A stretch of 64,000 bases of DNA. Origin: a bacterium. Its GTDB lineage: Bacteria; Bacteroidota; Ignavibacteria; SZUA-365. The stretch lies in assembly GCA_020444325.1 (NCBI GenBank), contig JAHLLD010000001.1:310001-374000 (forward strand), read 5' to 3'. The notes under the pieces were generated by a model. That model did no database searches, had not been told where the DNA came from, and saw nothing but the letters and a program-made list of their open reading frames with translations. The number at the start of each line of letters is the position of its first letter. The stretch's first letter is position 1. The translations under genes and the position numbers were made by a program. Of the stretch, positions 40,465 through 49,815 are shown piece after piece.

Positions 40465-40496
40465 GTTCGCTCCTGCAGATTGGAGGAAGGTACTTC

Positions 40497-40536
40497 GATG
40501 ATTGAAAAGGAAATATAGAAAAATGGAATGATGGAA
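40497..40536. repeat. Dispersed A/G-rich repeat (RAYT-linked family, copy 1)
   Basis: GATGATTGAAAAGGAAATAT followed by AGAAAAATGGAATGATGGAA. The first part matches the arm of the hairpin element at 49685-49762 (ATGATTGAAAAATGGAAATAT) apart from a two-base gap. It lies right after the stop of the asparagine-synthetase-like gene. Confidence 0.7.
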
Positions 40537-40539
40537 GCA

Positions 40540-42294
40540 TTAGTCCGATTTCATCAGATACGGCAGCAGCTTCATCAGCGTGTAATCCGCTGTCACCGGA
40601 GCCGATGCGGTAAATGCGTCGCGGATGCGAACACGATCGAACGCCTGATCATCGATGTCGAGGAAAGACAGATCCGGGGGGAAACGGAGTGAGGGCCGTA
40701 CGGAAGGCGCGTAGCGGCTCACGGCGTGATAAAGCCGCGGCCAGCGTGAGAGTCCCGCGCGACGGTACAGCCGTTCGAGCGCGACGGGAACGCGCAGCAG
40801 CCAGGGATTGGCAGTTGGCCAGGAAAGCACATCGGAGTAGGCGCGATGCAGGCGGCGCAGCTGCGGTACGTGCGTCTCGATGCTGAGCTGTTGGGGACGC
40901 TGACGCCAGCGCTTCGACGCTTCCATGCGTGCAATCAGCGCGACATACCTGCGGTCGTAGTACGGAGTCACGTAGCGAATATGCTGATTCTGCATAAGTG
41001 CGAGATCGGTCACATGCTGTGGCAGCAGCTGCTGCACGTAGAAACTGTCGGCGCAATATGCAGAATCTGCATAATTCCGCGGATCGGGTATCACCTGCTC
41101 GAGCTGCTCGATCGCGCGCCGCCTCAGGCGGTCTGCATCGCGTGTGAATCCGAGCACGTCTTCCTGCAGCAGCATGCGCGCCGACTCCCGCAGAAAATCG
41201 TCCCGCGTCTTCACGCGTGCGGCGGTGTTGCGCATGAACCAGCGTCCTTCAATTGAGGTGTGATTCCCGTCGAGCAGCATGCTCCCGTATCGGGCGTAGC
41301 GCCGGTGCACCTCGCTCGCATGAATGTTGTTGAAGGAAAGTACCCCGTTGCCAGCCGCGAGGAAGTCATCCTTTTCCTGCATCAGGTCGTAGGTGTCGGG
41401 CAGCCGTTCTTCGTGATGCTGCAGGCCGAGCAGACGGACGGTTTCCCTTGCAACGCCGATATCATGTCCCTCCTGCATGTAATGCGTCACAAAGCTGCAG
41501 TCTCGCCCCTCTGCATGCAGCACCGCCGCGATGGTGCGGCTGTCGAGTCCGCCTGTCAGTGCCGCAATGCTGCCCGTTCCTTCCATGTCATGCAGCGTCA
41601 GCACAGCCTCGCGAAACGCGTCGACGATATCCGCTTCGAGTCCATCATACGGCGCGGGATGTACCTCAACGGTGTCGTAACGGAAATGGGACGATTGTGC
41701 AGCGTCTCCGGTGAGATCAATATCCACCAGCGATGCTCCCGTCATCCGATGAATGCCTGCGTACATGGTTTTCCCACCCAGCGCGAAACCGAAGGCGAGC
41801 AGCTGCGCCATGCCGTCCTCGTCTTGCCGCAATCCCCCGCGCGCCTCTTTCCATCTGCACACCATGCGCAGCGAGGTTGAGAACACCGCGCCCTGTTCCT
41901 GCAAGCTGTAGTAGAGAGGAAGTGAAGCGAAGGGATCGGATACGAGTCGCAGATGCGTCCCGTCACAGCTGGCGGACTGAAACATCCCGTTGCAGTTGCG
42001 GGACAACTGTTCCACAGGCAGCGTGGCGAGCGCATGAGGCTCGCGGGAAAGCACGCTCTCCTCGAACATTACTCCGTCAAACACACCGATACCGGCACCA
42101 TCCGCCGCTTCGGAAAGCAGGGCGGGATACGGATACCGGGCGGATCTGATCACGCCGAGCATCACGCTCCCATCGGCCGATTGCTGCGTCTCGAGCAGCT
42201 GCTCCTCACCGACGTGCAGTTCGACTTCCTTCAACCAGGAATCGATCTCATCCCGCCGACGGGAGCAGATACCGAAGATTCCTGTTGGTAGCAT
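40540..42294 (-). CDS. Asparagine-synthetase-like protein without the catalytic N-terminal cysteine
   Basis: 584 residues. The first ~190 resemble the class II glutamine amidotransferase fold (GVFDGVMFEE, LRLVSDPFASLPLYYS), but the chain begins MLPTGIFGIC rather than Met-Cys-Gly, so the glutaminase nucleophile is missing. Residues ~250-560 are the ATP-pyrophosphatase synthetase domain with the PP-loop SIAALTGGLDSRTIA. It may use free ammonia or another amine, as seen in beta-lactam synthetase and other natural-product relatives; the product is unknown. Two copies of the 17-bp palindrome lie inside the gene and encode part of the protein (NYADSAYCADS, MQNQHI). Confidence 0.85.
   Translation of the reverse strand: MLPTGIFGICSRRRDEIDSWLKEVELHVGEEQLLETQQSADGSVMLGVIRSARYPYPALLSEAADGAGIGVFDGVMFEESVLSREPHALATLPVEQLSRNCNGMFQSASCDGTHLRLVSDPFASLPLYYSLQEQGAVFSTSLRMVCRWKEARGGLRQDEDGMAQLLAFGFALGGKTMYAGIHRMTGASLVDIDLTGDAAQSSHFRYDTVEVHPAPYDGLEADIVDAFREAVLTLHDMEGTGSIAALTGGLDSRTIAAVLHAEGRDCSFVTHYMQEGHDIGVARETVRLLGLQHHEERLPDTYDLMQEKDDFLAAGNGVLSFNNIHASEVHRRYARYGSMLLDGNHTSIEGRWFMRNTAARVKTRDDFLRESARMLLQEDVLGFTRDADRLRRRAIEQLEQVIPDPRNYADSAYCADSFYVQQLLPQHVTDLALMQNQHIRYVTPYYDRRYVALIARMEASKRWRQRPQQLSIETHVPQLRRLHRAYSDVLSWPTANPWLLRVPVALERLYRRAGLSRWPRLYHAVSRYAPSVRPSLRFPPDLSFLDIDDQAFDRVRIRDAFTASAPVTADYTLMKLLPYLMKSD
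40980..40996. repeat. 17-bp palindrome variant inside the asparagine-synthetase-like gene
   Basis: TATGCTGATTCTGCATA; its reverse complement differs at one position from TATGCAGAATCTGCATA. It lies 77 bases from the exact copy at 41057. Confidence 0.5.
41057..41073. repeat. 17-bp palindrome inside the asparagine-synthetase-like gene
   Basis: TATGCAGAATCTGCATA, perfect in both arms, in frame within the gene (encoding NYADSAY on the minus strand). It is identical to the copy at 58092. Confidence 0.85.
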
Positions 42295-42350
42295 AATGTG
42301 GGACCTCTGCGGTGTTAGGAAGAGCGCTTTCTCTGTAGGAGCTGATCAAC

Positions 42351-42384
42351 AATGGAAAGATAGAAAAATGGAAAGATGGAAAGA
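42351..42384. repeat. Dispersed ATGGAAAGA repeat (copy 2)
   Basis: Tandem ATGGAAAGAT-type units between the asparagine-synthetase-like and pcrA genes, of the same A/G-rich kind as 40497-40536 and 49685-49762. Confidence 0.65.
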
Positions 42385-42500
42385 TCATTTTCCGCTGGGT
42401 ACAATGTGCACCCCGAATATCAGTGATTGCTTCCAGGCAGGAGCAAACGGCCCGGTACACACAAAGGGAAGCAATCCCTGCTCCGTGTAAGCTTGTTATC

Positions 42501-44939: not shown

Positions 44940-46451
44940 CTACTTTTCCGGACGCATGGTCGGGAAGAGGATGACATCGCGGATGGATTCCGCACCGGTC
45001 AGCAGCATGGTCAGCCTGTCGATACCGATACCGAGTCCGGCCGTCGGCGGCATGCCGTATTCCAGTGTTTCCACGTAGTCTTCATCGAAGGTCATGGCCT
45101 CGTCGTCACCCCGAGCCCGCAGGCTGGCCTGCTCGACGAAACGTTCCTTCTGATCGATCGGGTCATTGAGTTCGGAGAACGCATTGGCGATCTCCTGTCC
45201 ATTGATATACAGCTCGAAACGCTCGACCAGTCCATCTTCCGTGCGATGTTTCTTGGCCAGCGGCGAAAGTTCGAGCGGGTAGTCGGTAATAAACGTCGGT
45301 TGAATGAGATTATCTTCCACGCGTTCCGAGAAAATCTCATCGATGATTTTTCCCGGACCGTCACTGTCTTCGAGTTCCACGCCGAGACGTTTTGCGGCTT
45401 CGCGCAGACCGGCTTCATCCTTGCCGCGCAGATCCTCGCCCGTATGTTCCTTGATGGAATCGAACATGCTCAGGCGGCGGAACGGCGGCGTGAAGTCGAT
45501 TTCCTCACCACCCACGACAGCGGTATTGCTGTTGTTGACAGCCTTGTTGATGGTGAACAGCATTTCCTCGACAAGCTCCATCATCCACCGGTAGTCCTTG
45601 TACGCCACGTACAATTCCATCATGGTGAATTCCGGGTTGTGATTGCGGTCCATCCCCTCGTTGCGGAAATCCTTGCTGATTTCATACACGCCGTGGAAAC
45701 CGCCCACGATCAGGCGCTTCAGGTACAGCTCGTCGGCAATGCGCAGGTAGAGCGTCATGTCGAGCGCGTTGTGATGGGTGACGAAGGGACGCGCGGCGGC
45801 GCCGCCGTACAGCGGCTGCAGCACGGGTGTTTCGACCTCGAGATATCCGCGTCCGTCGAGAAACGCACGCATGCTGCGAATCAGCTGCGAGCGCTTGACG
45901 AACACATCCTTCACCGAGGGATTCACGATCAGATCCAGTGCCCGCTTGCGGTAGCGCAGTTCCTTGTCGGCGAACTGATCGTAGACAACCTTGTTTCCTT
46001 CCTCGTCCGTTTTCTCTTTCGGCACGGGCAGGGGACGCAGGGATTTCGCGAGCAGAACGATTTCCTTCGCATGCACCGACACCTCGCCGGTACGCGTACG
46101 GAACACGAAACCCTTCACGCCGATCACATCGCCGATGTCGAGCAGCTTGAACATCTTGTAGCTGTCCTCGCCCACATCGTCACGTTTGACGTATATCTGG
46201 ATTTTCCCGGTATGGTCGGTGATATGGGTAAACGACGCTTTGCCCATACGGCGAATCGTCATGATGCGTCCCGCGAGCGCGACATTTCGCTCTTCCGCCT
46301 CATCGGTGAAAGATGCGAGAATGTCCGCCGCTTCAGCGTCCACCGGAAATTCATACGCGTAAGGCTGCACCCCGCGTTCGAGCAGCTCGTGATACTCCTC
46401 CCGCCTGCGGCGCATGAGATCGTTGAGGTCTTCGGTCTGACCGTTCTGCAT
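44940..46451 (-). CDS. lysS: Lysyl-tRNA synthetase, class II
   Basis: 503 residues. An N-terminal OB-fold anticodon domain ([22 protein letters not shown]) is followed by class II motifs: [17 protein letters not shown] (motif 1), [20 protein letters not shown] (motif 2) and [15 protein letters not shown] (motif 3), and ends VILFPTMRP. It charges tRNA-Lys. It is divergent from the toxin-antitoxin pair. Confidence 0.97.
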
Positions 46452-46562
46452 GAATACCTGTCACATTCTGTTTGAGTTCTGTCGGATTCAAAACTTACGG
46501 AGCTTGCGCGGTAAATCCAATTGCCCCGCCGCTTCGGCCGAGGAAAAGCCCCGAGAAATGAC

Positions 46563-46598
46563 TTGCGCTGTGGACCGAATAAAGTCTATATTCAGTCC
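46563..46598 (+). promoter_or_regulatory. Promoter with overlapping operator for the toxin-antitoxin pair
   Basis: TTGCGC (46563-46568), an 18-base spacer and TATATT (46587-46592). Overlapping it is an inverted repeat: GGACCGAATA (46572-46581) and TATTCAGTCC (46589-46598), pairing with one mismatch across a 7-base centre. A palindrome over the -10 is where a Phd/YefM antitoxin would bind to repress its own operon; that binding is inferred. Confidence 0.55.
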
Positions 46599-46617
46599 GA
46601 ACAGAAGGAGACAAAAC

Positions 46618-46893
46618 ATGAAGCTTTCCGAACAGGTCAAACCCGTCAGCTACTTCAAAGCGAATGCTGCGGAGATGCTCCGCTCCGTAGGCGAAGGAGG
46701 CGCCCCGTATATCATTACACAGAACGGGGAGGCAAAAGCCGTGCTGATGGATATCGACAGCTACGAGGAAACGCAGGAGACGCTTGCACTGCTGAAAATC
46801 CTCGCTCTGGGGACGCGCCAGATCGAAGAGAATGATGTGTATCCTGCCGATGAGGTTTTCGACCGCCTCCGTGATGGATTGCGGGAGAAATAA
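46618..46893 (+). CDS. Antitoxin, Phd/YefM family
   Basis: 91 residues from ATG 46618, with AAGGAG at 46605-46610. KLSEQVKPVSYFKANAAEML, then GAPYIITQNGEAKAVLMDIDSYEE is the Phd/YefM DNA-binding fold. The C-terminal 30 residues (ILALGTRQIEENDVYPADEVFDRLRDGL) are the part that would wrap the toxin. It overlaps the toxin start by one base (TAATG) and probably represses the pair through the palindrome at 46572-46598. Confidence 0.92.
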   Translation: MKLSEQVKPVSYFKANAAEMLRSVGEGGAPYIITQNGEAKAVLMDIDSYEETQETLALLKILALGTRQIEENDVYPADEVFDRLRDGLREK

Positions 46894-47219
46894 TGTCCCA
46901 TACCGTTTTTTTTACCAGGGATGCAGTCCGCGACCTGGACGCGATCCGGGATTATCTCCTCGATCATGGCGGAGTGGATGGTGCCATTGAGGAAATAGAC
47001 AGACTGCAGAAGCGCATAAAACGGCTCCATGTCCACCCCGAGCGGGGACATGTACCAAGGGAATTGCACGCGTCGGGATTGCAGGACATCCGGGAAATAA
47101 TCGAGAAACCATACCGCATTCTCTACCGCGTCACTGGAACACAGGTTTTCGTCTTGCTCGTCGCTCATGAACGACGCGACATGCAGACGCTGCTGCAGCG
47201 GCGCCTGCTGCGGGGTTAG
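46893..47219 (+). CDS. Toxin, ParE/RelE superfamily
   Basis: 108 residues. VFFTRDAVRDLDAIRDYLLDHGGVDGAIEEIDRLQKRIKRLHVHPERGHVPREL, then IREIIEKPYRILYRV and VFVLLVAHERRDMQTLL, fit the ParE/RelE fold. The end, with HERRDM in place of the RelE catalytic set, is nearer ParE (gyrase poison) than an mRNA endonuclease. Its mode of action is not shown. Translationally coupled to the antitoxin. Confidence 0.9.
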   Translation: MSHTVFFTRDAVRDLDAIRDYLLDHGGVDGAIEEIDRLQKRIKRLHVHPERGHVPRELHASGLQDIREIIEKPYRILYRVTGTQVFVLLVAHERRDMQTLLQRRLLRG

Positions 47220-49025: not shown

Positions 49026-49670
49026 ATGTCAACACTTGAACAGCGTTACTTCCGCGATGACGCGGAGGACGCGACGCATCACATCTACTCGTTCCTGACC
49101 TGCCGCCTCGCGCATTCCATCCCCTTCTCCGCCCGTGAGCAGCTCATGCAGTATCGCAGCAAATGCGAGCAGCAGCTGAGTAGCTCGGCTGACGGACTCG
49201 GCAGCGAAGCCGATATGTCGTCGGAACTGTTCCGCTACTGGGACGGATTGCTGGGCACGTCGCCCGGACCGGAGTGGCTCGGACACCCGGCCATCGCAGA
49301 ATTCACGCAGATGTCCCTTCACGCCATGGAAGGTGTGCTCTGCCGTCTCGAGGGCTACACCATCCTGCCCACGCATGTACACGTCTGCTACAGCCAGGAC
49401 CTCGCGCTGCGCTCGGGTCCCGCACCCACCCACGTCGCCGACGCACTCAAAACGCCTGTCGCACATTTCGCCTCACGCGTCCTCAACCTCCGCGGTCCTT
49501 TCTGGCAGAACGAAGATTACCACCGCATTCTCCGCAGCCGCCGCGAAGTCGACTCCATCCTTCGCTACCTCCGCCGTGACGCCGTCCGCAGCGGTCACGC
49601 CGCCCACCCCGAAGAATGGCCCTGGACCTGGTGCCGGGGTGAGGAGGTCACGGTCAGGATGATACAATAA
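49026..49670 (+). CDS. REP-associated tyrosine transposase-like protein (RAYT, Y1/HUH type)
   Basis: 214 residues. The Y1-transposase fold is seen in ILPTHVHVCYSQ (the two-His metal motif, HVH, near residue 119), then GPFWQNEDYHRILRSRREVDSILRYLRRDAVRSG and PEEWPWTW, the ending typical of RAYT proteins; the Tyr in EDYHRIL fits the nucleophile. The N-terminal third is more diverged. RAYTs are single-copy domesticated relatives of IS200/IS605 transposases that act on REP palindromes. A long inverted repeat lies 15 bases downstream. Catalytic activity is not proven; the His pair and Tyr are present. Confidence 0.85.
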   Translation: MSTLEQRYFRDDAEDATHHIYSFLTCRLAHSIPFSAREQLMQYRSKCEQQLSSSADGLGSEADMSSELFRYWDGLLGTSPGPEWLGHPAIAEFTQMSLHAMEGVLCRLEGYTILPTHVHVCYSQDLALRSGPAPTHVADALKTPVAHFASRVLNLRGPFWQNEDYHRILRSRREVDSILRYLRRDAVRSGHAAHPEEWPWTWCRGEEVTVRMIQ

Positions 49671-49684
49671 TCCCCGTGGAGCAT

Positions 49685-49762
49685 GGAAAGATGGAATGAT
49701 TGAAAAATGGAAATATGACCGTATGCGTCATATTTCCATCATTCCATTATTCAATTGTTCCA
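49685..49762. repeat. REP-like palindromic element next to the RAYT gene
   Basis: The core is a perfect 13-bp stem: ATGGAAATATGAC (49707-49719) with GTCATATTTCCAT (49727-49739) and a 7-base loop. Outer arms (ATGGAATGATTGAAAA left; ATTCCATTATTCAATTGTTCCAT right) extend the symmetry imperfectly. The left arm matches the dispersed repeat at 40497-40536. It may also end transcripts from both sides. Confidence 0.85.
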
Positions 49763-49815
49763 TAGTCCGCGCCCCCGGGGGTAGTGTAGAATCCCGGGTG
49801 AAAACGATCCCGCGT

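Follow-up and report, generated by a model that had tools for sequence, protein, structure and literature searches.

We wanted to know whether the palindrome that directly follows the gene for a divergent REP-associated-type HUH/Y1 transposase, here called RAYT-A, belongs to that protein, given that a REP/RAYT system had been predicted from the sequence of this locus. The window (the whole stretch of 64,000 nucleotides that was analyzed) comes from a genome of 4.65 Mb, labeled G000, and its relatives are labeled G005–G015. The gene and its motifs lie as follows.

49026–49670, plus strand: RAYT-A, divergent REP-associated-type HUH/Y1 transposase of 214 amino acids (NF047646, Foldseek, motifs)
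49371–49382, plus strand: HUH motif THVH (residues 116–119, with His-117 and His-119), from the ortholog alignment
49566–49568, plus strand: codon of Tyr-181, the candidate catalytic Tyr, aligned with Tyr-115 of E. coli TnpA-REP

The RAYT/HUH-Y1 identity proposed for this single-copy gene was borne out. Besides HxH and Tyr-181, which sits on the C-terminal helix, the protein carries a WQ pair (Trp-160 and Gln-161), and a Foldseek search with its AlphaFold model (mean pLDDT 75.7) returned as the first-ranked match 4er8, the structure of the E. coli RAYT (E 1.2e-5); the modeled protein combines an IS200-type fold with the HUH motif. The NCBIfam RAYT model NF047646 matched RAYT-A with an E value of 9.8e-9 and 35.2 bits, below its cut-off of 80, and matched all eight sequences of the ortholog alignment; a Pfam search with RAYT-A gave no match. 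Assigned by predicted fold and motifs only, with a score short of the curated family's, RAYT-A is best described as a real but divergent RAYT. Elsewhere in the window, a gene pair at 46450–47219 encodes a Phd/YefM antitoxin (E 6e-18) and a ParE toxin (E 5e-17).

A contig search with the single RAYT-A protein as the query found no matches, and with the RAYT-A alignment as the query it identified MAGs of uncultured Ignavibacteria and Bacteroidetes as the nearest named relatives of G000. Orthologs occur in nine genomes of the family at a matching position, next to purC-DUF3788, the Gate gene, or both, and, because they keep neighbors from the purC-DUF3788-RAYT-Gate order, RAYT-A has been inherited vertically. 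The original prediction had counted loss of the catalytic His or Tyr in orthologs against itself. The HxH motif is invariant across the nine orthologs, and Tyr at position 181 is kept in the genus of G000 (G000 and G005–G008) and in G010; a sister genus, represented by the orthologs of G013, G014, and G015, has Phe instead, a substitution that served as a catalytic mutant in published work on RAYTs (PMC8266576). This loss leaves the G000 gene itself untouched. Within the genus, Trp-160, Gln-161, and a downstream Arg are also kept, which align with the GTAG-contacting residues of E. coli TnpA-REP (PMC6006769). Further, we note that in G007 (C76) and G008 (C5; loci L043, L044, L057, and L056) a second, more canonical RAYT directly follows RAYT-A and that an inverted GGATTGAATTCCC-like pair, single-copy in G007, lies near or between the two genes.

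The palindrome beyond RAYT-A, termed M1, and the related features in the window (none assigned to a strand) are the following.

49683–49763: M1 element, four octamers ATGGAANN (one of them ATTGAAAA), a core, and four inverted octamers, inside larger imperfect arms spanning 49675–49771
49707–49719: left half, ATGGAAATATGAC, of a perfect 13-bp inner stem, with the right half at 49727–49739
40496–40556: half M1 (one arm), E 2e-4
42345–42405: half M1 (one arm), E 1e-4, about 15 bp from the M2 pair
42418–42484: M2 module, inverted pair ATCAGTGATTGCTTCC ... GGAAGCAATCCCTGCTCC, then a CARATNN-type heptamer array that begins at about 42493

The perfect 13-bp hairpin described at the outset is present as stated, within imperfect arms (49675–49719 and 49727–49771) that are 78% complementary, and the related copies proposed at 40.5 and 42.35 kb exist, each as a half M1; the site of the first is occupied by a complete M1 in G007. 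The distance to the gene had to be corrected, as 12 bp and not 15 separate the stop codon from the array, and it had been overlooked that the arms keep a strict 8-bp phase. Calculated as single-stranded DNA, the palindrome folds with −23.4 kcal/mol compared with −9.2 kcal/mol for shuffled sequences (z −5.8). The copy lies between convergent genes and is most likely one ordinary member of a dispersed family.

Genome-wide, BLAST detected 71 pieces of M1 in G000, and a covariance model built from 31 copies placed full elements at no fewer than 39 positions, with none expected by chance; because 150 candidates were scored, this number is a lower bound. In an unbiased 1.124-Mb sample of G000, M1 (complete or half) was found at 20 places compared with 0 in a Markov control, and the genome-wide count proposed as a check thus came out in favor of a dispersed repeat. 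All 20 places lie between genes, with overlaps of at most 23 bp, in a sample that is about 90% coding (gene calls came from a simple, purpose-written hexamer model). Each element consists of convergent arrays of 8-bp units of the form ATnGAAnr that enclose a short core. This core, approximately TATGGCATCGGGGNGCATGT, is richer in GC and weakly conserved (10.0 compared with 8.6 after shuffling, S.D. 0.18, in G000; 12.2 compared with 9.8, S.D. 0.25, in G007). Positions 1, 2, 4, 5, and 6 of the outer octamer are conserved at 84–97% and positions 3, 7, and 8 at 45–65%; the octamers are most conserved beside the core, and the outer ends are ragged. Octamer arrays of another unit (of the GACACNAA type) were seen at C1:7987 and C1:102091 of G000, one of them directly adjoining an M1. 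A literature search, which covered open-access papers, found no description of such octamer palindromes.

The long inverted arms, the stable fold, the intergenic location, and the position of the RAYT-A copy between convergent genes are what would be expected if M1 elements were bidirectional RNA hairpins, either terminators or stabilizers of mRNA 3′ ends, selected at gene ends. However, the two arms of the same copy matched at 23.33 of 30 positions and arms of different copies at 23.10 (swap test, p 0.18), and the covariance model contained practically no covariation term. Because the arms within a copy are no better matched than arms taken from separate copies, it is the motif that is kept and not the hairpin, and we rejected selection on the M1 arms as an RNA or DNA structure. 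Further, 4 of the 20 places lie between divergent genes, the orientation of neighboring genes follows the background without a clear preference, and a terminator scan found none at M1. Overall, RNA hairpins are a very unlikely explanation of the family.

Could M1 then be the substrate of RAYT-A, such that the protein recognizes the single-stranded inner hairpin, cuts beside it with Tyr-181, and has spread the copies? The HUH fold with its Tyr, the conserved counterparts of the GTAG-contacting residues, and the M1 directly behind the gene in G000 are consistent with such a pair, and atypical REPs that lack GTAG are known from subclass 2.6 of Bacteroidetes (PMC6006769). M1 is also nearly confined to genomes with a RAYT-A ortholog: at E ≤ 1e-4, it was detected in six of nine such genomes, G013 and G015 (with Phe) still carry a few M1-like elements, and none of the three family genomes without RAYT-A scored, although one of these (G012) has a single borderline copy. 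Three of the nine genomes with RAYT-A lack M1, however, and, because the genomes are few and related, the co-distribution proves nothing. Against the pair, M1 adjoins RAYT-A in G000 but at none of the eight orthologous loci, the catalytic Tyr has become Phe in three orthologs, and M1 has no GTRG foot: GTAG occurs at 0 of 32 array flanks and GT[AG]G at 2 of 32, with backgrounds of 1.3% and 3.9%. Further, G009, which has no RAYT-A, has convergent 8-mer arrays of other sequence, and a different RAYT of G000 is clearly flanked by its own REP family (see below). The inverted repeats after RAYT-A in G006 and G007 were considered as dispersed equivalents of M1 and rejected, both being single-copy. 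Thus, of the REP/RAYT system originally predicted, a real RAYT and a dispersed hairpin stand, and the functional pairing of the two is no more than a possibility. A link between M1 and RAYT-A may exist, but it is unsupported by the comparison across genomes, and we regard the pair as doubtful. RAYT-A is probably an old and domesticated HUH protein that has been passed on vertically.

The different RAYT, RAYT-B (C7:162216), scores above the RAYT family cut-off and is flanked on both sides by hairpins of a third family, M3 (CGTCCCCACGC..GCGTGGGGACGATG; C7:162198–162731, loci L062 and L285). M3 occurs at about 30 places in G000 and also in three congeners; two of these have RAYT-B, and the assembly of the remaining one is 87% complete. 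Because of this flanking position and distribution, RAYT-B and M3 are the more ordinary REP/RAYT pair of G000. The M3 hairpins beside RAYT-B begin with CGTC, which is paired in the stem. One published study reported that CGTC-tagged REPs flanked no RAYT, and in those REPs the tag is unpaired (PMC3733652); with its different tag pairing, M3 may fall outside that family. A third RAYT-like gene, at C4:174918, matches the RAYT model weakly, and M1, M2, and M3 are all absent from the surrounding 1.4 kb that was read. Of the three RAYT-like genes, two have M1 in a neighboring gap, RAYT-A directly and RAYT-B at about 140 bp with M3 between. We estimate that this would be roughly a 1% coincidence if M1 were placed at random in gaps, and the RAYT-B case is attributable to the clustering of M1 and M3 in mosaics. 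Indeed, 6, 3, and 5 of the 20 M1 places lie within 150 bp of M2, M3, and heptamer arrays, respectively, compared with 3–4% of random intergenic places. We conclude that M1, M2 (with its 7-bp arrays), and M3 are three interleaved families that share intergenic hot spots and form BIME-like mosaics. At four loci on contigs C11, C5, and C1 of G000 (L011, L038, L039, and L041), a half M1 is fused to the CATCGTCCCC end of M3, and the other arm is missing. The locus carries a warning: a repeat that adjoins a RAYT is not thereby its substrate, as a REP family of its own flanks RAYT-B in G000.

For ten M1 sites of G006 and G007, both flanks could be located in the G000 sample; six hold M1 in G000 as well, where well under one would be expected, and the other four hold M3 or M2/heptamer modules. 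The unit at shared sites differs between species, being ATGGAA in G000, ATGGCA in G006, and both ATGGAA and AAGGAA in G007. The counts of units were 76 ATGGAA and 2 ATGGCA in G000, 28 ATGGCA and 3 ATGGAA in G006, and 72 ATGGAA and 42 AAGGAA in G007. The M1 unit is homogenized per species. Drift from one ancestral element with retention could account for part of the M1 pattern, but the uneven conservation among octamer positions is not expected from it; the species-wide change of unit could have come about through gene conversion or through fresh insertions at old hot spots. The position-specific conservation and 8-bp phase of the octamer, the shared sites, and the species-wide unit would also suit arrays that never moved and that a nucleoid or regulatory protein of the host binds. 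However, gain, loss, and replacement of M1 by M2 or M3 at the same spots, together with mosaic junctions such as half an M1 fused to M3, resemble the turnover of elements and not fixed regulation, and we consider never-mobile arrays improbable. In our preferred reading, to which we assign a probability of about 0.6, M1 is REP-like, non-coding, and intergenic, and an inferred factor acting in trans reads the sequence of its units. Such a trans-acting factor would read the M1 unit as an array of sites and keep the units alike throughout the genome; M1, M2, and M3, presumably mobile in the past, would be largely inherited in place, with older M1 insertions persisting or being replaced by neighboring families. 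Because corresponding intergenic sites carry different units in related species, the M1 family provides natural replicates with which to test what recognizes the arrays and by what means short motifs scattered over a genome are kept uniform.

Convergent arrays are found beyond M1. In the G000 sample, an inverted partner within 150 bp accompanied 35 of 51 period-7 arrays and 12 of 23 period-8 arrays (47 of 74 together) but 0 of 36 arrays of period 6, 9, or 12; part of this excess is due to M1 itself. Other family members, including G009, have a few such arrays, with other units, in samples that were small. Convergent 7- or 8-bp arrays with unrelated units were seen at G009:C1:69278 and at G010:C1:20924 and 40404, and one convergent 8-bp array was seen in a Peribacteria contig (L270:5602). 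Tentatively, and with less confidence than in the reading of M1 itself, M1 and the 7-bp arrays might represent a single general type of element, in which convergent 7/8-bp arrays flank a core, the unit is set species-wide in trans, and elements at orthologous sites change unit together. If so, such elements would stand beside REPs and tandem heptamer repeats as a class of bacterial repeat in their own right.

Among known systems, M1 is closest to the REP/REPIN elements and their RAYTs (TnpA-REP; the E. coli REPtron), with which it shares being a high-copy, dispersed intergenic palindrome in a RAYT-bearing genome with one copy adjoining the RAYT (PMC6006769, PMC8266576). Unlike these, M1 is about 81–95 bp long, has octamer-phased convergent arms and no GTRG foot, is not kept beside RAYT orthologs, and conserves a motif and not pairing; lacking the GTAG foot and built from 8-bp unit arrays, it is not a canonical REP. 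As in BIMEs, M1, M2, and M3 modules lie against or within one another at shared intergenic sites, but the G000 mosaics include 7- and 8-bp arrays, and only M3 resembles an ordinary REP pair. The STRRs of cyanobacteria are short tandem repeats of the heptamer-array kind. Tandem heptamers such as the TAACTGA arrays of Beggiatoaceae, Cyanobacteria, and some Bacteroidetes are, like M1, intergenic, dispersed, and of short period, but they are direct repeats (one inverted case in 170 sets, in a Beggiatoaceae genome; PMC4679880), whereas M1 has period 8 and a degenerate phased motif in convergent arms around a core. Finally, the Porphyromonas gingivalis MITE with an internal minisatellite (PMC4596501), as far as its description allows comparison, resembles M1 in placing tandem units inside a small palindromic element of Bacteroidota.
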